DNA from: Alkalicaulis satelles
GTDB lineage: Bacteria > Pseudomonadota > Alphaproteobacteria > Caulobacterales > Maricaulaceae
DNA length: 64,000 bases
NCBI RefSeq assembly: GCF_008630495.1
Contig: NZ_VWOJ01000002.1
Span: 759,001 to 823,000, forward strand
Reading direction: 5' to 3'
Part shown: positions 7,955 to 20,131 of the stretch, in pieces
Position numbering within the stretch: the stretch's first letter is position 1
How the letters are laid out: every line of letters starts with the position of its first letter
The notes under the pieces: model-generated
The model's input: the letters and a program-made list of their open reading frames with translations, nothing else
The model's database searches: none
Told to the model about the DNA's origin: nothing
Program-made: the position numbers and the translations under genes

Positions 7955-8188
7955 ATGAATATCGAGCAGGACCATCCCCGGATTTCCATCGATCCCGCGA
8001 TCATGTTCGGCAAGCCGTGCATCAAGGGCACGCGCGTGCCGGTGTACTTGATTTTGAGAAAGCTTTCGTCCGGGATGAGCGAGGCGGAGATTCACGAGGC
8101 CTATCCGCACCTTGAACAAGGCGATGTGCAGGCCGTCTTGGCGTATGCCGCCGACCAGCTGGAAGAGCCTGTCGTGGCGGCCCAGTAG
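7955..8188 (+). CDS. DUF433-family protein (antitoxin-like)
   Basis: Small protein of 77 aa of the DUF433 family, which is widely paired with DUF5615 PIN-like proteins and viewed as the DNA-binding antitoxin of that pair. The core ISIDPAIMFGKPCIKGTRVPV at the N-terminus and the EIHEAYPHLEQGDVQAVLAYA segment are typical; the second half carries a winged or helix-turn-helix-like segment. Its stop codon TAG shares its last base with the GTG start of the partner (TAGTG), so the two are made from one message. Likely self-repressing, although no operator was found. Confidence 0.8.
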   Translation: MNIEQDHPRISIDPAIMFGKPCIKGTRVPVYLILRKLSSGMSEAEIHEAYPHLEQGDVQAVLAYAADQLEEPVVAAQ

Positions 8189-8562
8189 TGCGGTTCTTCG
8201 CTGACGAATGCGTGGATATGCGCATCGTGCGCGCATTGCGCAGCGCAGGCCACGAAGTCCTCCAGCCCGATTTTTCTGCTCGCGGTGCAGCCGATGACAG
8301 TGTGCTTGAGGCGGCTTTGAAAAGCAGAGCGGTTCTGCTCACCGAAGATCGCGATTTTGGCGCGCTGCTGTTTCGTGATTCTCGTGACGCTGTCGGCGTT
8401 GTCTATTTCCGCTGCGATGACCCTGCCCGCTGCACGCAAGCCGTGCTGGACACGCTGCACCGCGTCACGGGCCATTTCGTTGTCGTCACTGATCGCGCCA
8501 TTCGCGTGCGCCCTTTGAAGGGAAGCCTTCCCCATGAAACTCTCCGGCCTCAAAGTCCTTGA
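8188..8562 (+). CDS. DUF5615 PIN-like protein (toxin-like)
   Basis: Protein of 124 aa starting at GTG 8188 with MRFFADECVD. This is the DUF5615 (Mut7-C/PIN-like) start, with the acidic cluster Asp6-Glu7 and a second one in LLTEDRDFGALL, as expected for a PIN-type metal nuclease. Together with DUF433 it forms a putative toxin-antitoxin pair. The last 29 bases overlap the start of the next CoA-transferase gene, so the pair is wedged into the catabolic gene run and may be co-transcribed with it. Activity is not demonstrated for most members of the family. Confidence 0.8.
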   Translation: MRFFADECVDMRIVRALRSAGHEVLQPDFSARGAADDSVLEAALKSRAVLLTEDRDFGALLFRDSRDAVGVVYFRCDDPARCTQAVLDTLHRVTGHFVVVTDRAIRVRPLKGSLPHETLRPQSP

Positions 8563-9703
8563 CCTCTCCGCCTTCCTGCCCGGTCCGCACATGACCCTGA
8601 TGATGGCCGATCACGGCGCGGATGTGGTGATGATCGAGCCGGCCAACGGGACCGGCGAGCCGACGCGCGAGATCGGCTGGAAGACCGCCGACGGCGTGTC
8701 GGTCTGGTTCCGCAATATCGCGCGCGGCAAGCGCTCGCTGGCGCTGAACCTGAAAGACCCGGACGGCCAGGCCCTGCTACACGCGCTGGCGCGCGAGGCC
8801 GATGTGGTGGTGGAGGCGTTCCGCCCCGGTGTCGCCAAGCGGCTCGGCGCCGATTACGAGACGCTCAGCGCGATCAATCCGCGTCTGGTCTATTGCTCCA
8901 TCTCCGCCTTCGGGCAGGACGGCGCCTATGCGATGAAGCCCGCCCATGACCTGACCGTGCAGGCGCTGGCCGGGCTCGCCGATCTCAATCGCGGGCTGGA
9001 GGATGGCAAACCGGCCAGCCCCAACATGCCGGTGGCCGACATGGCCGCCTCGCTGATGGCGCTGTCAGCGGTGCTCATGGCGCTCTACAGGCGCCAGCAG
9101 ACGGGCGAGGGCGATTTCATCGATCTGGCCATGTATGATGCGGCGCTGGCCTGGACGCCCAATGTCACCGGGCCTGTCTTCGCTGAGGACGCTCATCCGC
9201 CGGTGAAGGACATGCGCTCGTTCGGCGGGGCGGCCATGTATCATGTCTATGAAACGAAAGACGAAAAACACCTGGTGCTGGGTGGGTCGGAGATCAAGTT
9301 CGCCGCCAACCTGCTCGAGGCGCTGGGCCGTCCGGACCTGTTGCACTTCGCCCGCCTTGAGCCCGGCCCGGACCAGGCGCCCTTGCGAGACTATTTCAAA
9401 GAGACCTTCGCCAGCCGCACGCTGGCCGAATGGAGCGATTTCCTGAAAGACATCGATGTGTGCTGGGCGCCCGTGCGTTCGCTGAAAGACGCGTTCGACG
9501 ATCCCCATACGCGCGCACGCGGCATGGTGTTCGAGGACGCCGCCGGCAACCGCCATATCGGCCCGCCCATCCGTTTCGCGAAAGAGCCGCCTCAGCCCGA
9601 TCCGTCCGTGCCGGGGTTTGGCGCGCACTCCGAGGCGCTCGCCAGAGAGGCCGGGTTTGATCCTGAGCGCATCGCAGAGATGAAGGCGCGCGGGGTGATT
9701 TGA
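8534..9703 (+). CDS. CaiB/BaiF class III CoA-transferase (second)
   Basis: Second family III CoA-transferase of the region, 389 aa, only distantly similar to the one at 6355. The probable catalytic aspartate is Asp169 in NMPVADMAAS. The N-terminus GLKVLDLSAFLPGPHMTLMM and the RGKRSLALNLKDPDG segment are typical of racemase/CoA-transferase members (alpha-methylacyl-CoA racemase and relatives share this fold), so either CoA transfer or acyl-CoA epimerisation is possible. The ATG lies inside the end of the DUF5615 gene, with GAAGGGAAG just upstream. It is the last gene of this rightward run before a family B repeat. Confidence 0.85.
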   Translation: MKLSGLKVLDLSAFLPGPHMTLMMADHGADVVMIEPANGTGEPTREIGWKTADGVSVWFRNIARGKRSLALNLKDPDGQALLHALAREADVVVEAFRPGVAKRLGADYETLSAINPRLVYCSISAFGQDGAYAMKPAHDLTVQALAGLADLNRGLEDGKPASPNMPVADMAASLMALSAVLMALYRRQQTGEGDFIDLAMYDAALAWTPNVTGPVFAEDAHPPVKDMRSFGGAAMYHVYETKDEKHLVLGGSEIKFAANLLEALGRPDLLHFARLEPGPDQAPLRDYFKETFASRTLAEWSDFLKDIDVCWAPVRSLKDAFDDPHTRARGMVFEDAAGNRHIGPPIRFAKEPPQPDPSVPGFGAHSEALAREAGFDPERIAEMKARGVI

Positions 9704-9723
9704 AGGTCGCGCTTTATGATTCC

Positions 9724-9888
9724 CCGCACCCCCTCACCTTTATCCTCTCCCCCATCTCCATGGGGGAGAGGGGGCATTGACGCCGCGCTTTTTCCTTTGG
9801 GCTTGGGGTCAAGCATTTCCGAAACAAACGCAGCGCATAAGCCTCCTCTCCCCTCTTTGAGGGGAGAGGATAAAGGTGAGGGGTGCGG
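9724..9888. repeat. MITE-like intergenic repeat, family B copy 1
   Basis: About 165 bp with long inverted ends: the left end carries CACCCCCTCACCTTTATCC and the right end the mirror GGATAAAGGTGAGGGGTG. Inside, both ends form an extra GC hairpin (CTCCCCCAT...ATGGGGGAG on the left; CTCCCCTC...GAGGGGAG on the right), and the centre holds CCTTTGGGCTTGGG. Related copies lie at 17661-17819 and 20223-20386. There is no reading frame of note. It could be a non-autonomous mobile element or a structural RNA-level signal. Confidence 0.75.
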
Positions 9889-9915
9889 CGCCCAACCTCA
9901 ACACAGGAGCCGGTG

Positions 9916-10347
9916 ATGACCCACTTTCCCGCCATGCGCGCCCATGAAGGCGTCTGGGAGGGGGTTTACACCCATCTCGATACTGACGGCGCGGTGGTCG
10001 ACCGGCATAAGGCGCGGGTGATCTGTGACTTCCCGGCTTCCGGCGATCCTTTCTACGTCCAGCATATTCGCTTTGAGTGGCCGGACGGGCGGCTGCGCGA
10101 GGACCGGTTTGACGGGCGCATTTCAGGCGATGAGATCGTGTTCGACACGCCCACATTCTCCGGCCGGGCCTGGGAGAGCGCAGGGCTGGTCCTGCTCAAT
10201 CTGGACCGCAAGGACGAGCCGGGCGCCCATTTCACCGAAATCATCGTCATGGCTCCGGACGGGCGCACCCGCGCGCGCACCTGGCACTGGTTCAGGGACG
10301 GCGTACTGGTCCGCCGCACGCTGTGCGATGAGAGGCGGGCGGGCTAG
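9916..10347 (+). CDS. Conserved hypothetical, lipocalin/DUF3598-like fold suspected
   Basis: Cytoplasmic protein of 143 aa starting with MTHFPAMRAHEGVWEG; the ATG at 9916 is chosen because AGGAG lies at 9905-9909, and an upstream in-frame start falls inside the repeat. The pattern of alternating hydrophobic strands, with a WEGxY start and a final RTWHWFRDGVLVRRTLCDE strand, suggests a small beta-barrel such as the nitrobindin/DUF3598 group. This is a resemblance only. No catalytic motif is seen. It follows the catabolic run and converges on the aspartate kinase fusion gene. Confidence 0.6.
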   Translation: MTHFPAMRAHEGVWEGVYTHLDTDGAVVDRHKARVICDFPASGDPFYVQHIRFEWPDGRLREDRFDGRISGDEIVFDTPTFSGRAWESAGLVLLNLDRKDEPGAHFTEIIVMAPDGRTRARTWHWFRDGVLVRRTLCDERRAG

Positions 10348-10357
10348 ACTCCAGACG

Positions 10358-12967
10358 TTAAATCACTCTCTCCCCCGCCGGCTCGCGCAGATTATAGCGC
10401 GAGGCCATGACCGCGCCGTAGGCGCCGGCTTCGGCGATGAGCATCACGTCGCCCTCGCGCGTCTCGGGCAGCAGGCGTTCAGCGCCTAGCAGGTCCGCGC
10501 TTTCGCAGATCGGGCCGACCACCGAGGCGAGGCCGGCGCCGGGCTCATCCAGGCGGGTGAGGTTCACGATCTCATGGCGTGCGCCGTAGAGGGCGGGGCG
10601 GATCAGCGAGTTCATGCCCGTGCCCAGCCCGATAAAGCGCGCCCCGAAGGCGTGCTTGACCTGGGTGACGCGCGCCAGCAGCACGCCGGCTTCGGCCACT
10701 GGATAGCGCCCGGGCTCCATCCACAGCTCGAAGCGCGGATGGGCTTTTTTTAGCAGCGCCAGCTGGGCGTCCACTTCGGCCAGATCAAGGGCGGGCGCGT
10801 CGGGGCTTTCAGGCACGCCGAGCCCGCCGCCGCAATTGAGGATGCGCGCATCCGGGAAATGGCGCGCCGCATTGGCCAGGATCGCGCCGATCTCGCGCCA
10901 GTGATCGGCCTCGGTCACGCCAGACCCGGCATGGGCGTGCAGGCCGATAACGCGCACGCCTGCGGCCTCGGCGGCTGCGCGCGCTTCGTCCAGGGCTTCG
11001 AGCGGAATGCCGAACTTGGCCTTGGGCCCGGCGGTCTTGACGTGCTGGTGGTGTCCGCGCGGGCGGTCGGGATTGACCCTCAGGATCACCTCCGCCCCGC
11101 GTAAAGTCTCCGCCCAGTGGGTGAGCGGGTGTAGCCCGTCAATGGTCAGATGGGCGCCAAAGGCGCGCGCGGCCTCATACTCGCTGCGATGGGCGAAATT
11201 GGGCGTGAACAGCACCTCGTCCGGGGTGAGGTCTGAAAACGTCTCCTGCAGCCGCGCGATCTCGCCGGGGGACACGCACTCAAATCCGAGGCCCGCTGCG
11301 CGGATGGCGCGCAAGACGTCGCGGTGGGCGTTGGCCTTCATGGCGTAGAAGGCGCGCGAGAGCGACTGGATACCCGCCACGGCGCGTGCGCGCGCGCTGA
11401 CGGTTTCAAGATCGTAGACATAGAGCCCGCCGGTATCGGGCGCTGCGTCGAGAAGTGCGGCGCGCTTCGTGCGCCACCAGGGCGCGGACCGGGCCGGGCG
11501 CGCATCGGCGGGGCGGGCGAGCTCGGCCCAGCTTGGACCGAAGACCGGGCCTTCGGGCGCCGGGCTGATCAGTTCCTCATGCAGGCGCTTGGCCAGCGCT
11601 GCGCCTTCGGCCTCGTCCACCACGACGGTGAAGTTGAGATCATTGGCGGCCTGGCTGACCAGCCGGATCGGCTTGTCCTGGAACATTTCCAGCGCCGGGG
11701 CCAGCTGGTGGAGAATGCGCCGGATGCCATAGCCCAGAAGGCTCACGGCGGCCGCGTTCTCGATAATGCGCACCCGGCACAGCGGCGCCAAGGTCTCGCG
11801 CAGGCGCTCCAGCCGCGCCGCGTCCAGGCCCGGATCGGGATCGAGGCTGACGGTGACGTTGGTTTCCGAGGTGGAGACCAGATCCACCGACACCCCGCAC
11901 GCCTTGAAGCCGGCGAACACATCGGCGAGGAAACCCGCCTGGCGCCACATCCCTGAGCCTTCCATGGCCACCAGGCGCACCCCGGTTTTGACCGAGACGG
12001 CCTTCAGGCGCGGGGCGTCATCGCCGGGCGAGGCGCTGATGGTTGTGCCGGCGAGCTCCGGGCGCAAGGTGGAGCGCACCTCCAGCGGGATGTTGGCCCG
12101 GCGCGCCGGGCCGATGCAGCGTGGATGCAGCACCTTGCCGCCCATGGTGGCGATTTCCTGCGCCTCTTCATAGGAGAGCGCGCGCAAATGCCTGGCCCCT
12201 TCGGTCAGGCGCGGATCGGCGCTGAACAGGCCGGGCACGTCGGTCCAGATTTCAAGGCGCGCGGCCCCGATGCGGGCGGCGAAATAGGCCGCCGAGGTGT
12301 CCGACCCGCCCCGGCCCAACAGCACCGTGCCGCCATCGCGGTGGCGCGCGATAAAGCCCTGGGTGAGGACCAGCTGCGCGTTTGCCAGGCGCGCCTGCAG
12401 GGCGGGATCGGCGTCCTCGCCGGCGCTATTGTCGAGCCATGCGCGCGCCTCGTCGGCGGTGTTGAGGGCTACCAGCGCCTCGCGCGCGTCCAGCGTCTCG
12501 GCTTCGAGCCCTGCGCCCCTGAGGCATTCGAGACCCAGCACGCTCGCCATCAGCTCGCCCTGGGCCATCAGCTCGGCGCGCAGGCGCGCGCTGGCCTCTC
12601 CCGAATAGGCGATGCCGGCGGCGCGCCGGGTGATGAGATCGAAGGGTCCGGCCAGCAGCGCGTCCGCGTCCAGCCCGGCCTTGGCCGCGAAGGCGCGGTG
12701 TGCGTCCTTGACCGCTTCGGCTGCGCCCTCGCCCGCGCCCGCCAGCGCGGCGGCGGGCAGGGCTTCAAGCAGGTTGGACACGCCCGCCAGCGCTGAGTGC
12801 ACGATCAGAACCCGCTCGCCGGCGTCCAGCCTTTCGCGCGCAATATCGGCGATCACACGCCAGCGCTCGGGCGCGGCCACCGACGTGCCGCCAAACTTCA
12901 TCACCACCCAGGGGCGGGCCGAAGCGGACCAGTCAGCGGACGGGGGGCGGGATGCTGAAGCGGGCAT
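10358..12967 (-). CDS. Bifunctional aspartate kinase / diaminopimelate decarboxylase
   Basis: An 869-aa fusion of the first and last enzymes of lysine synthesis. Residues about 20-310 are aspartate kinase (VVMKFGGTSVA at 21-31, then GRGGSDTSA), followed by ACT regulatory domains up to about 470. Residues about 500-869 are a PLP-dependent meso-diaminopimelate decarboxylase, with the PLP lysine at about Lys544 in YAMKAN, HAHAGSG for phosphate binding, the catalytic-site CESADLL and the C-terminal YNLREP. The kinase makes aspartyl phosphate; the decarboxylase gives lysine. ACT domains indicate feedback control, probably by lysine or threonine. The fusion is known in Xanthomonadales and some marine bacteria and less common in alphaproteobacteria. 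No strong ribosome-binding site precedes the ATG, so the exact start is less sure. Confidence 0.9.
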   Translation of the reverse strand: MPASASRPPSADWSASARPWVVMKFGGTSVAAPERWRVIADIARERLDAGERVLIVHSALAGVSNLLEALPAAALAGAGEGAAEAVKDAHRAFAAKAGLDADALLAGPFDLITRRAAGIAYSGEASARLRAELMAQGELMASVLGLECLRGAGLEAETLDAREALVALNTADEARAWLDNSAGEDADPALQARLANAQLVLTQGFIARHRDGGTVLLGRGGSDTSAAYFAARIGAARLEIWTDVPGLFSADPRLTEGARHLRALSYEEAQEIATMGGKVLHPRCIGPARRANIPLEVRSTLRPELAGTTISASPGDDAPRLKAVSVKTGVRLVAMEGSGMWRQAGFLADVFAGFKACGVSVDLVSTSETNVTVSLDPDPGLDAARLERLRETLAPLCRVRIIENAAAVSLLGYGIRRILHQLAPALEMFQDKPIRLVSQAANDLNFTVVVDEAEGAALAKRLHEELISPAPEGPVFGPSWAELARPADARPARSAPWWRTKRAALLDAAPDTGGLYVYDLETVSARARAVAGIQSLSRAFYAMKANAHRDVLRAIRAAGLGFECVSPGEIARLQETFSDLTPDEVLFTPNFAHRSEYEAARAFGAHLTIDGLHPLTHWAETLRGAEVILRVNPDRPRGHHQHVKTAGPKAKFGIPLEALDEARAAAEAAGVRVIGLHAHAGSGVTEADHWREIGAILANAARHFPDARILNCGGGLGVPESPDAPALDLAEVDAQLALLKKAHPRFELWMEPGRYPVAEAGVLLARVTQVKHAFGARFIGLGTGMNSLIRPALYGARHEIVNLTRLDEPGAGLASVVGPICESADLLGAERLLPETREGDVMLIAEAGAYGAVMASRYNLREPAGERVI

Positions 12968-13092: not shown

Positions 13093-14292
13093 TTACGAAA
13101 ACGCCTGCAGGCCGGTCATGGCCCGGCCGAGGATGAGGGCGTGCACGTCGTGGGTGCCCTCATAGGTGTTCACGGTTTCCAGATTCATGGCATGGCGCAG
13201 GATATGGTATTCCTCCGCGATGCCGTTGCCGCCATGGATGTCGCGGGCCTCGCGGGCGATGGCCAGCGCCTTGCCGCAATTATTGCGCTTCATCAGGGAG
13301 ATGGCCTCGGGCACGAAAGCGCCCTCGTCGAGCAGGCGGCCCAGCTGTAGCGCGCCCTGATAGCCCAGCGCGATTTCGGTCTGCATGTCGGCGAGCTTTT
13401 TCTGCACCAGCTGGGTGCCGGCGATGGGCTTGCCGAACACCACGCGCTCCATGGCGTAGTCGCGGGCGGCGCGCCAGCAGAATTCCGCCGCGCCCATGGC
13501 GCCCCAGGCGATGCCGTAGCGCGCCTTGTTGAGGCAGGAGAACGGCCCGCGCAGGCCCTTCACATTGGGCAGCAGCGCGTCTTCAGGCACCAGCGCGTCG
13601 CTTAAAGAGATCGAGCCGGTGATAGAGGCGCGCAAGGACAGCTTGCCCTCGATCTTCGGGGTCTCGAAGCCCTTCACCCCGCGCTCCACGACGAAGCCGC
13701 GGATGACGCCGTCCAGCTTGGCCCACACCACAGCCAGATCGCTGATGGGCGAATTGGTGATCCACATCTTGGACCCGTTGAGCAGATAGCCGCCCTCGAC
13801 CTTTTTCGCCGTGGTGCGCATGGCGCCCGGATCCGACCCGCCATCAGGCTCGGTCAGGCCGAAACAGCCCACCCATTCGCCGGTAGCGAGTTTGGGCAGG
13901 TATTTGCGTTTTTGCTCTTCAGTGCCGAACGCCTCGATCGGGTACATGACCAGCGAGGACTGCACGCTCATGGCCGAGCGATAGCCTGAATCCACCGCCT
14001 CCACCTCGCGCGCGATCAGGCCGTAGGCCACGTGGGAGAGCCCTGCGCCGCCATATTCCTCGGCCACCGTGGCGCCCAGAAGGCCCAGCTCGCCCATCTC
14101 GGTCATGATCTCGCGGTCAAAGCGCTCCTCGCGATAGGCGCTGATCACGCGCGGCAGCAATTGCTCGCGGCAATAGGCGCGCGCGGCGTCGGAAATCATG
14201 CGCTCCTCCTCGCTCAGCTGGTGATCAAGATGGAGCGGGTCCTCCCAGGAAAAGCTCAGCGAAGTCTCGTGTGCGGCGTCCAGCGCGGCCAT
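13093..14292 (-). CDS. gcdH: Glutaryl-CoA dehydrogenase
   Basis: Acyl-CoA dehydrogenase of 399 aa that oxidises and decarboxylates glutaryl-CoA to crotonyl-CoA in lysine, tryptophan and glutarate breakdown. The group signature [16 protein letters not shown] (residues ~102-117), with the dicarboxylate-binding Arg, separates it from ordinary acyl-CoA dehydrogenases. Other marks are [13 protein letters not shown], the [12 protein letters not shown] segment and the catalytic Glu378 in NTYEGTHD. The start at 14292 is preferred to the ATG at 14298, because GAGGAG directly abuts 14298 but is 6 bp from 14292. The gene diverges from the aconitase-like operon, sharing a short promoter region. Confidence 0.92.
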
Positions 14293-14378
14293 GGTCATCT
14301 CCTCGTCAGGTCCAAACCATCGCCGCCAGTCTGAGGCGGGGGCTTGGGTCAGAAATGTTATAAAGATATATCCTTTGC

Positions 14379-14429: not shown

Positions 14430-15716
14430 ATGGCCGCAACCCTTGTTGAAAAGATCCTCGCACGCGCCGCCGGGCGCGACGCGGTGTCGCCGGGCGACAT
14501 CGTGACCATCGGCGTGGATCTGGCCATGGCCCATGATTCGTCCGGGCCCCGCCGCTGGCAGGCCCGGCTGGAAGCGCTGGGCGCGCGGCTGTGGGATCCG
14601 GACCGCGTGGTGATCGTGTCGGATCATTATGTCCCGGCTGTCGACGCCGAATCCGCCGCCATCCTGAAACAGACCCGCGCGTTTGCGCGCGACTATGGCG
14701 TGAAGCATTTCTACGACATGAAGGGCATCTGCCATGTGATCCTGCCCGAGAACGGGCACGTGATCCCCGGCATGGTGATTGCGGGCGGCGACAGCCACAC
14801 CACGAATGCCGGCGCGTTCGGCGCCTATGCGGCGGGCTTTGGCGCCACCGACATGACCGCCATAGCCGCCACGGGCGAGACCTGGACCACCGTGCCGGAC
14901 ACCATCCGCGTGGAGATCACCGGGACCCTGAGCGACGGCGTCACAGCCAAGGACGTGATGCTCGCCCTGTGCCGGGATCTGGGCATGGGCAATCACTTCA
15001 AGGCGGTGGAGTATGACGGCGAGGCGGTGCGCGCCATGGACATGGAGGCGCGCATGGTGCTGGCCAATATGGCCGCCGAGCTGGGCGCGGAGACGGGCCT
15101 GATCGCGCCGGATGACGTGACGCTCGCCCATATCCGCGCCCATGGCGGGACCGTCGGGGATGATGCGCCCGACCGCTGGCGCTCCGATGGTGATGCGGTG
15201 TTCGCTCGGACCTTCAAGCTCGACGGCGCGGCGCTCGCCCCCCAGGCCGCCGCGCCCCATTCGCCCGCCAACAGCGCCGATGTGGGCGATCATGACGGCG
15301 CGCGCATTGATCAGGCCTATATCGGCGCCTGCGTGGGCGCCAAGCTCTCCGATCTGCGCATGGCCGCTGCGGTGCTCAAAGGCCGCAAGATCGCGCCTGG
15401 CGTGCGGCTTCTGGTGGCGCCGGCCTCGGCGCGGGTGACGGCGGCGGCGGCCAAAGACGGCACGCTGGAAACCCTGATCGAGGCGGGTGCGGTGATGCTG
15501 CCCTCGGGCTGCGGCGCGTGCGCCGGGCTGGGCGCGGGGCTGCTGGCGGCGGGGGAGGTGTGCATCTCCTCGACCAACCGTAATTTCAAGGGCCGCATGG
15601 GCCACAAGGACGCCTCGGTCTATCTGGGCTCGCCCTACACCGTGGCGGCCAGCGCCATTGAGGGCCGGGTGGCCGATCCGCGCCCCTTCCTCACCGGACG
15701 GAGGGCGGCGGCATGA
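14430..15716 (+). CDS. Aconitase-superfamily large subunit (LeuC/DmdA-like)
   Basis: [4Fe-4S] hydro-lyase large subunit, 428 aa, the length of archaeal-type LeuC/homoaconitase and of dimethylmaleate hydratase large subunits. The three cluster cysteines appear to be Cys301 (IGACVGAKLSDLR), Cys361 and Cys364 (SGCGACAG), followed by the active-site strand STNRNFKGRMG. GGDSHTTNAGAFGAYAAGFG near residue 116 is the classic substrate/cluster loop, here differing at few positions. It shares 4 bp with the small-subunit gene. The third gene is a methylisocitrate/dimethylmalate-lyase-like enzyme and not isopropylmalate dehydrogenase, so leucine synthesis is unlikely. A 2,3-dimethylmalate- or methylcitrate-like intermediate fits better. 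Confidence 0.85.
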   Translation: MAATLVEKILARAAGRDAVSPGDIVTIGVDLAMAHDSSGPRRWQARLEALGARLWDPDRVVIVSDHYVPAVDAESAAILKQTRAFARDYGVKHFYDMKGICHVILPENGHVIPGMVIAGGDSHTTNAGAFGAYAAGFGATDMTAIAATGETWTTVPDTIRVEITGTLSDGVTAKDVMLALCRDLGMGNHFKAVEYDGEAVRAMDMEARMVLANMAAELGAETGLIAPDDVTLAHIRAHGGTVGDDAPDRWRSDGDAVFARTFKLDGAALAPQAAAPHSPANSADVGDHDGARIDQAYIGACVGAKLSDLRMAAAVLKGRKIAPGVRLLVAPASARVTAAAAKDGTLETLIEAGAVMLPSGCGACAGLGAGLLAAGEVCISSTNRNFKGRMGHKDASVYLGSPYTVAASAIEGRVADPRPFLTGRRAAA

Positions 15717-16249
15717 GCGTGCGCGAGGGCCGGGCCTGGGTCTATGGCGGCGGGATCGACACCGATCTCTTGGCCCCCGGCTACGCCATGAAGAAAAGCC
15801 CTGAAGAGCTGGCCAGGCACACGCTGGAAGCCGTCGATCCGGATTTCGCGGCGCAGGTCCGGCCCGGCGACATGCTGGTGGCGGGCGAGGATCTGGGCAT
15901 CGGATCCAGCCGGGAGCAGGCGGCCATATCGCTGAAGACGCTGGGCGTGTCGGCGGTGATCGCGGCGAGTTTTGCGCGCATTTTCTATCGCAATTGCATG
16001 AATATCGGCCTGCCCGCCATGCGCTTTGATCCGGCCGGGCGCATCAAGACCGGCGACCGGCTGCGCTTTGATCTGGCGGCGGGGCGCCTCGACAATCTGA
16101 CCACAGGCGAGGGCTGGACGGTGGCGGCCCTGCCGCCGCACCTCATGGCCATGATCGCGGAGGGCGGGCTGATGGCCAGCCTGGCCCGCCGCTTTAACCC
16201 AGAACCACAAGACGCCGGACACGGCGCGGCCCCAGGGAGCCTCACATGA
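15713..16249 (+). CDS. Aconitase-superfamily small subunit (LeuD/DmdB-like)
   Basis: Swivelling small subunit of the hydro-lyase, 178 aa. It begins with VYGGGIDTDLLAPG, which matches the N-terminal IxTDxIxP pattern, and has the conserved GEDLGIGSSREQA loop at about residues 60-72 that binds the substrate carboxylate and closes the active site. It then continues with VIAASFARIFYRNCMNIGLP, the usual family segment. Start and stop overlap both neighbours by 4 nt (ATGA), so large subunit, small subunit and lyase are made as one coupled unit. The length fits DmdB/LeuD of the archaeal type. Confidence 0.85.
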   Translation: MSVREGRAWVYGGGIDTDLLAPGYAMKKSPEELARHTLEAVDPDFAAQVRPGDMLVAGEDLGIGSSREQAAISLKTLGVSAVIAASFARIFYRNCMNIGLPAMRFDPAGRIKTGDRLRFDLAAGRLDNLTTGEGWTVAALPPHLMAMIAEGGLMASLARRFNPEPQDAGHGAAPGSLT

Positions 16250-17133
16250 CCGATCTCAAGACCCGTCTGGCCGCTGACGGCCCCGCCGTGCTGGCGCCGG
16301 GCGTGTATGACGCGCTCAGCGCGCTGCTGGTGGCCGAGGCCGGGTTCGAGGCGGCCTATCTGTCGGGCGCCTCCATCGCCTACACCCAGCTGGGTCGGCC
16401 CGATCTGGGCCTGGTCAGCGCCAAGGAGGTGGCCGACACGATCGCGCGCATCCATGAGCGCACGCCCATCCCCCTGATCGTCGACGCCGATACCGGCTTT
16501 GGCAATGCGCTCAATGTGCAGCGCACGGTCAAAACCTTCGAGCGCGCGGGCGCCAGCGCCATCCAGCTCGAAGACCAGCAATTGCCCAAGCGCTGCGGCC
16601 ATCTGGCCGGCAAGAGCCTGGTCAGCCTGGCCGAAATGGCCGGCAAGGTGCGCGCGGCGGTCGATGCGCGCGCCAGCGAGGCCACCTTGATCATTGCGCG
16701 CACCGACGCCATCGCCGTGGAGGGCTTCACCGCCGCGCTGGAGCGCGCCGAAGCCTATCTCGAAGCCGGAGCCGACATCCTGTTCATCGAGGCGCCCCAG
16801 GACATGGCCCAGATGAACGCCGCCGCCGCCCGCTTTGCCGGCCGTGCGCCGCTGCTGGCCAATATGGTGGAGGGCGGACGCACGCCCCTGCGCACCCTGG
16901 ACGATCTGTCCGCGGCCGGATACCGCCTCGTGATCACGCCGGGCGCGCTGGTGCGCGCCCTGGCCTTCATGGCCCGCGACTTCCTGGCTGCCCTGAAAAC
17001 CGACGGCGCCACAGCGCGATACCGCGACCGCATGCTCGATTTCGGCCAGCTCAACACGCTTCTGGGCATCGACGAGATGAAGGCCGACGGGGAGCGCTAT
17101 GATGCGGGCGAAGCGCCCAAGGCGGCGGAGTGA
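16246..17133 (+). CDS. Isocitrate lyase/PEP mutase family lyase (methylisocitrate or 2,3-dimethylmalate lyase-like)
   Basis: Lyase of 295 aa with the PEP mutase/isocitrate lyase barrel. IVDADTGFGN (Asp80, Asp82) binds Mg2+, QLEDQ holds Glu109, and LPKRCGHL supplies the catalytic cysteine Cys117, as in methylisocitrate lyase and in 2,3-dimethylmalate lyase of Eubacterium barkeri. Such enzymes split a 2-hydroxy-dicarboxylate or tricarboxylate to pyruvate plus propionate or succinate. No methylcitrate synthase (prpC) is seen here, so the coupling with an aconitase-like pair argues for a dimethylmalate-type reaction. It is the third and last gene of a tightly overlapping operon. Confidence 0.85.
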   Translation: MTDLKTRLAADGPAVLAPGVYDALSALLVAEAGFEAAYLSGASIAYTQLGRPDLGLVSAKEVADTIARIHERTPIPLIVDADTGFGNALNVQRTVKTFERAGASAIQLEDQQLPKRCGHLAGKSLVSLAEMAGKVRAAVDARASEATLIIARTDAIAVEGFTAALERAEAYLEAGADILFIEAPQDMAQMNAAAARFAGRAPLLANMVEGGRTPLRTLDDLSAAGYRLVITPGALVRALAFMARDFLAALKTDGATARYRDRMLDFGQLNTLLGIDEMKADGERYDAGEAPKAAE

Positions 17134-17902: not shown

Positions 17903-17998
17903 GACCCACACCCCCCGTAATTCTATAACGCACAGACAAGCCCCGCGCCCGCGTGCTAACCCTTTGCGCTCACGATGGTTTGTGCGGGAGTATGGGTG

Positions 17999-20131
17999 AT
18001 GGCGGGATGGATGGCGCGGGGCGCGGCCGGGATGGCGGCGGGTGCGATGCTGGCGCTGGCGGCGTGCGGCGAGCCTTCGGGCACGCGTGAGGCCGGGAAC
18101 GAGGCGGCGGGCGAGGCGGCGGCGGGGGCTGATCGCTGGGGCCAGACCCGGGCGGCGGATGCCGTCTTCACCGTGATGACCAGCGGCACGCCCATTGGCG
18201 CGCTGGAGGTCTGGCGCGAGGCGGACCGCTACGCCATCGGCTACGAGTTCCGCAATAACGGGCGCGGGCCGACCTTTGAGGAGGCCATCCATCTGGGCGC
18301 CGGCGGCCATCCCGTCCACTGGACGATTGAGGGCGCGACCACGTTCGGCAATCAGGTGGACGAGCATTTTCATCGCGAGGACGAGGGCGAGGGTGACGGC
18401 GCAGCGCACTGGCGCGATTCCACCGGCGAGGGGCAGGCTCACCCCGGCGGCCCGGCGCTCTATGTGCCGCAGAACGCCAGCCCCTATGCGCTGGGACTGG
18501 CTGCGCGCGCGCTGATGGCCGCGCCCGGGCGCACGCTTCCGGCCCTGCCCGGCGGGCAGCTGCGGCTGGACCCGGTGGAGACCCTCGAGGTGACGGGTGC
18601 AGACGGCGCGGTGCGCCAGGTGCAGGCCTGGGCCCTGTCAGGCGCCAGCCTCAACCCGTCCTGGGTGATCATGGATGGCGACCGGTTCTTCGCCAGCGTC
18701 TCGCCGCGCTTTGCCGTGATCGCCCAAGGGTTCGAGGGCGAGGATGCGCGCCTGCGCGAGCGCGCCGGCGCCTGGGAGGCCGAGCGCTATGCCGGTATCC
18801 AGAGCCGCGTCGCCCGGCGCTATGACGGGCCGGTGCGCATCGCCGATGTACGCGTGTTCGATCCCGATGCGCAGGCGCTGACGGCGCCGGTGTCGGTGCT
18901 CATCGAGGGCGAGCGCATTGTGAGCCTAGACGCGCCGGATGTGCGCCGCGCGGGCGAGACGGTCATCGATGGCGCGGGCGGAACGCTGGTCCCCGGCCTG
19001 TTTGAAATGCATGCGCACTTAGGCGAGACGGCGGCCTTCCTGAATGTGGCTGCGGGCGTGACCAGCGTGCGTGATATGGGCAATGACAATGACAGCCTGG
19101 ACCGGCTGGAAGCGGAGATCGAAGCCGGGCGCATGGCGGGGCCGCGCATTTTCCGAAGCGCCTTCATCGAGGGGCGCAGCCCGTTCAACTCCAATTCCGG
19201 CGTGCTGGTGGATTCGGTGGAGGACGCCGTGGCCGCCGTTCACGCCTATGCCGACCGGGGCGGGTTCCACCAGATCAAGATCTACAACTCCATGAGCCCG
19301 GACTGGATCCCCGAGGTGATCGCCGCGGCGCGCGAGCGCGATATGCGCGTGTCCGGCCATATCCCGGCCTTCACAAACGCCGACGCCATGATCGCGGCGG
19401 GCTATGACGAGATCACCCATATCAACCAGCTCATGCTGGGCTGGGTGCTCGATGCCGACGAGGACACGCGCACGCTGCTGCGGCTCACCGCGCTGAAACG
19501 CCTGCCGGATCTCGATCTGGACAGCGCAGCGGTGAATGCGACGCTGGATGCGATGGCCCAGCGGGGCGTGTCCATCGATCCCACCCTGGTGATACATGAA
19601 TCGCTTCTGCTGTCGCGCAATGGCGAGATCAATCCCGGCGCGGTGGATTATATCGACCACATGCCGGTGGCGAGCCAGCGCTCGGCGCGCAGCGCCTGGG
19701 TGGCCATTGAGAGCGAGGACGATGACGCGGCCTATCGCGGCGCGTTCGACCAGATCCTCGAAACCCTGCGCCGCATGCGCGAGCGGGGGATTTTCCTGGT
19801 GCCCGGCACCGATACCGGCGGCTCCTTCACCTATCACCGCGAGCTGGAGCTCTATCAGGAGACCGGGATGAGCCCGGCGGAGATTCTCGCCTGGGCCGGC
19901 CATGGCATGGCCGATTATCTGGGCGCTGGCGATGAGCTGGGCCGTATCGCGCCGGGCTATTACGCCGATGTCTTCCTCATCCCCGGCGATCCGACTGAGG
20001 ACCTGAAGGCCATCAAGACCATCTCCATGGTGATGGCTGACGGCGTCGTCTACTTCCCCGAAGAGATCTATCCCGAGTTCGGCATCAGACCGTTCGCCGC
20101 GGCGCCGTCGGTGAGCGTGGCGGGGGATTGA
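17999..20131 (+). CDS. Amidohydrolase-family lipoprotein
   Basis: Predicted periplasmic, lipid-anchored amidohydrolase of 710 aa. The N-terminus ends in the lipobox LALAAC with Cys23. Residues about 40-280 form an uncharacterised domain; from about 285 a composite amidohydrolase domain begins (RIADVRVFDPDAQ) with the metal-binding HxH in FEMHAHLG, later His residues in SGHIPA and the C-terminal PGTDTGGSF. Relatives cleave cyclic amides or act as imidazolonepropionase-like or prolidase-like enzymes; the substrate here is unknown. The start is set at ATG 17999 because GGGAG at 17986-17990 is 8 bp upstream; an earlier ATG at 17975 lacks a site. The gene is flanked on both sides by matching repeats B, C and D, as if it were a cassette. 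Confidence 0.8.
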   Translation: MAGWMARGAAGMAAGAMLALAACGEPSGTREAGNEAAGEAAAGADRWGQTRAADAVFTVMTSGTPIGALEVWREADRYAIGYEFRNNGRGPTFEEAIHLGAGGHPVHWTIEGATTFGNQVDEHFHREDEGEGDGAAHWRDSTGEGQAHPGGPALYVPQNASPYALGLAARALMAAPGRTLPALPGGQLRLDPVETLEVTGADGAVRQVQAWALSGASLNPSWVIMDGDRFFASVSPRFAVIAQGFEGEDARLRERAGAWEAERYAGIQSRVARRYDGPVRIADVRVFDPDAQALTAPVSVLIEGERIVSLDAPDVRRAGETVIDGAGGTLVPGLFEMHAHLGETAAFLNVAAGVTSVRDMGNDNDSLDRLEAEIEAGRMAGPRIFRSAFIEGRSPFNSNSGVLVDSVEDAVAAVHAYADRGGFHQIKIYNSMSPDWIPEVIAAARERDMRVSGHIPAFTNADAMIAAGYDEITHINQLMLGWVLDADEDTRTLLRLTALKRLPDLDLDSAAVNATLDAMAQRGVSIDPTLVIHESLLLSRNGEINPGAVDYIDHMPVASQRSARSAWVAIESEDDDAAYRGAFDQILETLRRMRERGIFLVPGTDTGGSFTYHRELELYQETGMSPAEILAWAGHGMADYLGAGDELGRIAPGYYADVFLIPGDPTEDLKAIKTISMVMADGVVYFPEEIYPEFGIRPFAAAPSVSVAGD

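Follow-up and report, generated by a model that had tools for sequence, protein, structure and literature searches.

In Eubacterium barkeri, the hydratase DmdAB and 2,3-dimethylmalate lyase serve the anaerobic fermentation of nicotinate. A gene triplet comparable with this system was analysed in Alkalicaulis satelles (Alphaproteobacteria; Maricaulaceae; assembly GCF_008630495.1), within a stretch of 64,000 nucleotides of contig NZ_VWOJ01000002.1 (positions 759,001 to 823,000 of the forward strand), hereafter the window, whose first letter is position 1. By description, the two systems are alike in that a two-subunit aconitase-type hydratase is followed by a lyase of the isocitrate lyase (ICL)/phosphoenolpyruvate (PEP) mutase family acting on a disubstituted malate; they differ in that the E. 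barkeri enzymes belong to an anaerobic fermentation, whereas the genes described here occur in proteobacteria with ring-amide hydrolases and glutaryl-CoA dehydrogenase (GCDH) as partners. With a probability of roughly 0.5, we propose that the triplet supplies the later steps in the breakdown of disubstituted maleimides, hematinic acid being the likeliest starting compound and pyruvate and glutarate the products. Hematinic acid, 3-methyl-4-(2-carboxyethyl)maleimide, is one of the fragments that heme, bilins and chlorophyll yield on oxidation.

Other described enzymes come close to single parts of this proposal. PrpB, of the methylcitrate cycle, resembles the lyase in family, in the KRCGH motif and in the proposed reaction, in which a 2-methyl-3-substituted malate is cleaved with release of pyruvate; the lyase differs from it in forming a separate clade, in scoring under the equivalog cut-off, in having no second citrate synthase in the genome and in its predicted substrate, which is one carbon longer and would yield glutarate, not succinate. 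Homoaconitases (4kp2, 2pkp) and isopropylmalate isomerases (4nqy, 3vba) share the two-subunit architecture and the substrate loop of the hydratase; unlike them, the window proteins score under both equivalog cut-offs, carry the LeuC signature GAC[VT]GAK and are predicted to act catabolically on a methylated homoaconitate, and the small subunit has Lys for the homoaconitase Arg. For the ring-opening steps the likeness is at the level of families: passages of PMC9304392 describe Aspergillus HxnM, a PuuE-related cyclic imidase with 64% identity to a cyclic imide hydrolase homolog of Pseudomonas putida, and, next in the pathway, an ammonia-freeing amidase (HxnM/HxnN); there, unlike in our proposal, 3-hydroxypiperidine-2,6-dione is converted to alpha-hydroxyglutarate. 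Neither a description of such a maleimide pathway nor a bacterial route for the carbon or nitrogen of hematinic acid was found among the open-access literature matches listed, a scope outside which most subscription journals lie.

The three genes overlap at both junctions as ATGA, read directly in the sequence, and the overlapping LeuC-like, LeuD-like and lyase genes of a preliminary description of this DNA are borne out. A GCDH gene lies divergently beside them:

14430..15716, plus strand: LeuC/HacA-like large subunit of a putative [4Fe-4S] cis-dicarboxylate hydratase, 428 amino acids (aa); Aconitase PF00330, E = 3e-93
15713..16249, plus strand: LeuD/DmdB-like small subunit, 178 aa; Aconitase_C PF00694, E = 1e-17
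16246..17133, plus strand: ICL/PEP-mutase-family lyase (LYA), proposed 2-methyl-3-(2-carboxyethyl)malate lyase, 295 aa; PEP_mutase PF13714, E = 3e-45
13093..14298, minus strand: GCDH, divergent from the triplet; three solved GCDH-named sequences match at 590-591 bits

Subfamily membership of the hydratase and the lyase

The fold assignment of the triplet proteins is clear from their sequences. The large subunit exceeds the cut-off of NF001614, a broad LeuC/homoaconitase subfamily model (517 bits; cut-off 385), and the small subunit passes TIGR02087, the LeuD/DmdB subfamily model, alone (158 bits; cut-off 109). The equivalog models are missed both for LeuCD (TIGR00170, 249/560 bits, score/cut-off; TIGR02083, 408/611; TIGR02084, 138/246) and for homoaconitase (NF040615, 449/550; NF040625, 149/230). 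The signature of the large subunit is GACVGAK, as compared with GSCTNAR in the LeuC encoded on contig C5 of the same genome. In the small subunit, Lys27 of the loop APGYAMKK aligns with the Arg of the YLRT loop in homoaconitase 2pkp, a basic residue which presumably binds the extra carboxylate. Isopropylmalate isomerase 3vba reads YLVY there, and the Lys falls opposite Val or Tyr depending on the placement of a one-residue gap. Lys27 is kept in 8/8 aligned sequences and, by pattern, in 41 of 46 close relatives (the remainder having A in 2, and R, P and Q in 1 each).

The lyase scores 155 bits with PF13714 (cut-off 31.5) and carries the motif KRCGH; K[KR]CGH is found in 81/81 sequences, and KxCGH is what we take to be the lyase motif of the ICL/PEP-mutase superfamily. 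With the PrpB model TIGR02317 it reaches 286 bits, under the cut-off of 354. PrpB (E = 9e-58) and the petal death protein are somewhat better matches among solved relatives than 2,3-dimethylmalate lyase 3fa3 (E = 3e-46). In a tree of 111 proteins (a single build with some long branches) the lyase family forms its own clade (91 rows, support 100/97), separate from a PrpB group (13 rows, support 100/99) to which each of the 11 proteins exceeding the PrpB cut-off belongs. The preliminary description had considered that the lyase might cluster within true methylisocitrate lyases; by score and by tree it lies outside them.

Aconitase-family genes number three in the genome searched, which comprises 2.89 Mb on 8 contigs. 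A canonical LeuC (637 bits; cut-off 560) is encoded on contig C5 beside IlvE (412/279), and the following gene is LeuD by eye, with no match at the strict limit of 1e-60. The single citrate-synthase-family gene is citrate synthase I (775/485 bits), methylcitrate-synthase models staying under cut-off. Two outcomes kept in view in the preliminary description, a prpC gene elsewhere in the genome and the triplet as its only LeuCD, were thus not observed. Also present are an ordinary isocitrate lyase and, on contig C1, another PEP-mutase-family gene with none of the lyase-locus partners within 16 kb.

A conserved, modular ring-amide gene set

Neighbourhoods were compared for the best 80 of at least 564 lyase relatives, with flanks of up to 10 kb; the record names point to alpha-, beta- and gammaproteobacteria as well as other groups. 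Open reading frames (ORFs) were called and clustered, presence was flagged by homology and families were assigned from one representative per main cluster; the loci are 3.3-20.9 kb long and several lie on short contigs, hence the counts are lower bounds. A LeuC-like gene is found in 64/80 loci, so the triplet arrangement is not due to chance. An isochorismatase-type hydrolase (amidase) occurs in 40/80, as does a flavocytochrome c/TcuA-type flavoprotein; a transporter, too, is common among the relatives. The ring-amide hydrolases are of three unrelated types, namely HyuA and/or HyuB (38 loci), PuuE-like (13) and dihydropyrimidinase-like (8), and never do two of these types stand at one locus (0/80). 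In a control restricted to 1.5 kb, a ring hydrolase was found at 49/80 lyase loci and any partner at 0/11 true PrpB genes; the corresponding numbers for 18 other relatives are 5 with a ring hydrolase and 6 with LeuC, all six LeuC bearers lying inside the lyase clade. The composition of the set can be read from an annotated plasmid of Azospirillum oryzae, where the run comprises GntR, a branched-chain-type ABC transporter, the lyase, hydantoinase B, hydantoinase, a cysteine hydrolase, an FAD oxidoreductase, leuC and leuD. The triplet is the end of a conserved, modular ring-amide gene set. PuuE-like loci are scattered over several separate parts of the lyase tree, which suggests that one ring hydrolase has replaced another on more than one occasion.

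The LeuC-like genes at the 80 loci comprise 42 close and 22 divergent ones. The divergent form (e.g. in L034 and L043) occurs in many HyuAB clusters and has GSCTNxR in 17/22; the hydratase of many such clusters seems to have been replaced as well. The flavoprotein of the relatives scores 155 of 369 bits to TcuA and, by analogy with tricarballylate dehydrogenase, could feed in saturated (succinimide) forms. Several PuuE-type lyase clusters (L013, L016, L017 and L021) encode a protein of cluster c23, which has a methyltransferase domain and an extended N-terminal part, and L177 9286-10665 looks like it by eye. The set is also found on L009, a metagenome contig titled Bordetella parapertussis, a label that might stem from faulty binning or naming.

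In the window, no ring hydrolase of the three kinds and no half-amidase lies next to the triplet. The genome holds 2 isochorismatase, 1 HyuB and 4 polysaccharide-deacetylase family matches; the HyuB-family gene, a 1213-aa oxoprolinase-like fused frame that is 30-32% like the cluster HyuB, was not counted. Contig C4 carries a row of genes for a DUF1838-like protein (24.0 bits, just below the cut-off of 25), a CpeT-family protein, an isochorismatase and two PuuE-like proteins. The isochorismatase and the first PuuE-like protein show 70-79% identity to lyase-locus genes of Brevundimonas, Caulobacter and a Caulobacteraceae metagenome-assembled genome (MAG); the second PuuE-like protein is 53-56% identical to its nearest counterparts. 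A lyase ortholog (identity of at least 64%) is present in 13/137 genomes of the family and the first PuuE-like gene in 25/137, including all 13 (hypergeometric P = 1e-11, uncorrected for relatedness); within the genus the co-occurrence has P = 0.0014 (8/15 lyase versus 9/15 PuuE-like). The 13 exclude G032, G057 and G121, whose homologues (37-46%) are non-orthologous; G057 has the PuuE-like gene and G032 and G121 are without it. In two loci from genomes of another genus (L178, L180), both pathway halves lie in one 20-kb stretch, with GCDH beside leuC; genes of fetched islands such as L178 were called by a GC-position caller. Near the PuuE-like pair of L178 there is also a carbon-nitrogen hydrolase (8932-10047; PF00795, E = 4e-23), which L179 2984-4099 and L183 18821-19999 resemble by eye.

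The top match of the window GCDH, 4w9u (597 bits), is named only acyl-CoA dehydrogenase; nine GCDH-named sequences come next (591 to 355 bits), the following match has 230 bits, and a GCDH-named entry of another type, 3mpi, has 174. It is the sole close copy in the genome, other copies being at most 34% identical. Lyase loci with a true GCDH span at least three lineages; candidates in L012, L062 and L069 (27-31%) proved to be other acyl-CoA dehydrogenases and were rejected. In L033, a Cohaesibacteraceae MAG, genes for HyuB, HyuA, isochorismatase, lyase, flavoprotein, GCDH and CoA-transferase share one orientation, and their ends abut or overlap (ends from a simple ORF caller, one junction checked). 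The CoA-transferase, truncated where the contig stops, reaches 529 bits with succinate-glutarate CoA-transferase (cut-off 750), as against 303 for the next family. The adjacent single-copy GCDH, the L033 run and the Lys at the homoaconitase Arg position favour a carboxyethyl side chain and glutarate as the product.

Two further window genes were considered as possible members:

8534..9703, plus strand: CaiB-type CoA-transferase, possible glutarate activator, weak; PF02515, E = 1e-103
17975..20131, plus strand: amidohydrolase, 718 aa, membership uncertain; PF01979, E = 6e-21

The best NCBIfam match of the CaiB-type protein is succinate-glutarate CoA-transferase, at 186 of 750 bits and hardly above others. 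The amidohydrolase has a signal sequence by eye, and its first ~330 residues lie outside any Pfam family; in L008 and L178, the lyase is followed by an ORF that looks similar. Adjoining GCDH, 10358-12967 on the minus strand encodes a fused aspartate kinase/diaminopimelate decarboxylase (PRK08961, 1132 bits), a lysine-synthesis gene that is perhaps beside a glutarate-catabolic enzyme by chance. A short ORF at 8188-8562 (plus strand) looks DUF5615/PIN-like by eye.

The proposed pathway and competing explanations

In the proposed pathway, the PuuE-like imidases of contig C4 would open the imide to a maleamate, from which the isochorismatase-type hydrolase would free ammonia to give 2-methyl-3-(2-carboxyethyl)maleate, i.e. 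methyl-homoaconitate. The LeuCD-like hydratase of the window would add water, the resulting methyl-homoisocitrate would be cleaved by the lyase to pyruvate and glutarate, and glutarate, once converted to glutaryl-CoA, would be oxidised by the divergent GCDH. Going by known chemistry, maleimide alone among the ring types that these hydrolases open would give, after opening and deamidation, the cis-dicarboxylate required by an aconitase-type hydratase. The recurring partners further suggest a maleimide with a propionate side chain, and glutarate rather than propionate as the product. The single route of the preliminary description, in which a substituted maleate is hydrated and then cleaved to pyruvate and an acid, appears supported by gene family and context. 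That the substrate is an imide-derived substituted maleate in general we consider probable; the chances of glutarate as the product are about even, and hematinic acid itself is put forward tentatively, at somewhat lower odds.

Several observations weigh against this proposal. We infer every activity, every substrate and the order of the steps. None of the three ring hydrolases is found in 21/80 loci, including that of the nearest relative (L008), 16/80 are without a LeuC-like gene, and a matching isochorismatase occurs at just 7 of the 13 PuuE-type loci. By score, HyuAB is nearest to caprolactamase, and the best solved match of the cluster PuuE-like protein is PuuE allantoinase (E = 1e-20); judged by these matches, lactams or ureides are possible ring substrates. 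A true GCDH (identity of at least 66%) lies beside the lyase locus in only 7/80 relatives, and no dedicated glutarate CoA-transferase could be shown in the A. satelles genome. CpeT is found at 0/80 lyase loci, and its adjacency to the amidase is confined to the family of A. satelles, being absent in the four other genomes of the class with CpeT. Finally, G005 and G061 have PuuE-like and isochorismatase genes together with HMGL- or CoA-type genes, with no lyase match at 1e-40, which indicates that the upper half also occurs without the lyase.

The islands of G005 and G061 (L176, L177 and L173-L175) contain a TonB receptor, VOC-looking proteins and a FAD_binding_4 oxidase and, beside the PuuE-like and isochorismatase genes, mesaconyl-CoA-hydratase-like, HpcH/HpaI and HMGL-like genes (some genes of L176 and L177 scanned); they are perhaps a CoA-dependent variant.

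A maleimide other than hematinic acid might be the substrate, whether disubstituted (methylethyl-, methylvinyl- or dimethylmaleimide) or lacking the methyl group, giving pyruvate with butyrate or propionate, or glyoxylate with glutarate. The ring-opening and amidase evidence fits equally, and most relatives are without GCDH at the locus; the window GCDH would then be a neighbour with another role or serve the glyoxylate version. Such a substrate is nevertheless unlikely in view of the Lys that the LeuD-like subunit has at the homoaconitase Arg position, the adjacency of a single-copy GCDH and the L033 run ending in GCDH and a glutarate-type CoA-transferase. Alternatively, the ring might be that of a hydantoin, dihydropyrimidine or lactam; once the nitrogen was removed, LeuCD and the lyase would act on a different intermediate. 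We hold this to be quite improbable: the nearest matches by score are indeed caprolactamase for HyuAB, allantoinase for the dihydropyrimidinase-like enzyme and PuuE allantoinase for the PuuE-like one, but by general chemistry such rings would give amino acids or ureido acids, unlike the cis-dicarboxylate of the hydratase, and a true imidase exists among PuuE-related proteins.

The membership of the small subunit in the LeuD/DmdB subfamily and the match of the lyase to 3fa3 (E = 3e-46) agree with the reading entertained in the preliminary description, that of a dimethylmaleate hydratase and dimethylmalate lyase forming pyruvate and propionate as in the nicotinate fermentation of E. barkeri, now in an aerobe. 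This reading is not the best fit and seems very unlikely, given that the partners in the 80 relatives are ring-amide hydrolases and half-amidases, in some with a GCDH that it leaves unexplained, and that PrpB and the petal death protein match the lyase somewhat better. A second methylcitrate-cycle or leucine set, i.e. a PrpB-like lyase with a spare LeuCD, has in its favour the close match of the lyase to solved PrpB (E = 9e-58). It is already contradicted, and we accord it next to no weight: the proteins score under the PrpB, LeuC and LeuD equivalog cut-offs, and the lyase lies outside the PrpB clade, whose 11 true members have no partner within 1.5 kb. A PrpB/methylcitrate identity was rejected on the score below cut-off, the tree, the gene neighbours and the presence of just one citrate synthase, of type I; a leucine-pathway identity was rejected on the canonical LeuC beside ilvE elsewhere in the genome.

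CpeT-family genes and a possible link to tetrapyrrole pigments

The CpeT/CpcT family is named for bilin lyases. Its member on contig C4 (PF06206, E = 2e-19) lies immediately upstream of the isochorismatase-type amidase; the tetrapyrrole hypothesis had been formed before this gene came to light. PF06206 is found in 5/385 genomes of the class (A. satelles included) versus 17/137 of its own family. The PuuE-like gene is present in 16 of these 17 genomes, and CpeT adjoins isochorismatase and PuuE-like genes in 10 of the 30 loci read.

In alphaproteobacteria, CpeT-family proteins are also encoded beside TonB receptors (L186 4867-9617; L241 8420-11933) and with DUF1838 proteins (L186; L237 8274-9864). 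The CpeT protein by the TonB receptor is a longer one in L186 and L241, that of L186 being weakly like the solved CpcT 4o4o (E = 0.0066). The recurrence of such loci suggests a unit for the uptake of bilins or other pigments.

The maleimide pathway proposed here may be part of a wider one in which tetrapyrrole pigments (heme, bilins, chlorophyll) are used as a source of carbon and nitrogen: in relatives, linear tetrapyrroles would be taken up by TonB receptors together with CpeT-family proteins and cut to maleimides by oxygenases, and the imidase, amidase, hydratase and lyase would convert the rings that bear a propionate to pyruvate, glutarate and ammonia. Ring hydrolases of three unrelated types would have been recruited to the one position. 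This extension is speculative and, on present evidence, rather doubtful. Passages of PMC7318184 put the yearly turnover of chlorophyll on a scale of 10^12 kg and report hematinic acid from leaves at levels similar to those of dipyrrolic products, alkyl maleimides being undetected there; the passages of PMC8669743 on bacterial porphyrin breakdown hold no such genes.

The genes of the set are currently annotated as leucine biosynthesis or as 'isocitrate lyase/PEP mutase family'. If the proposal is true, genes so annotated would gain a function and the breakdown of pigments would gain a testable end; the repeated exchange among three unrelated ring hydrolases would offer a clear-cut example of non-orthologous replacement.

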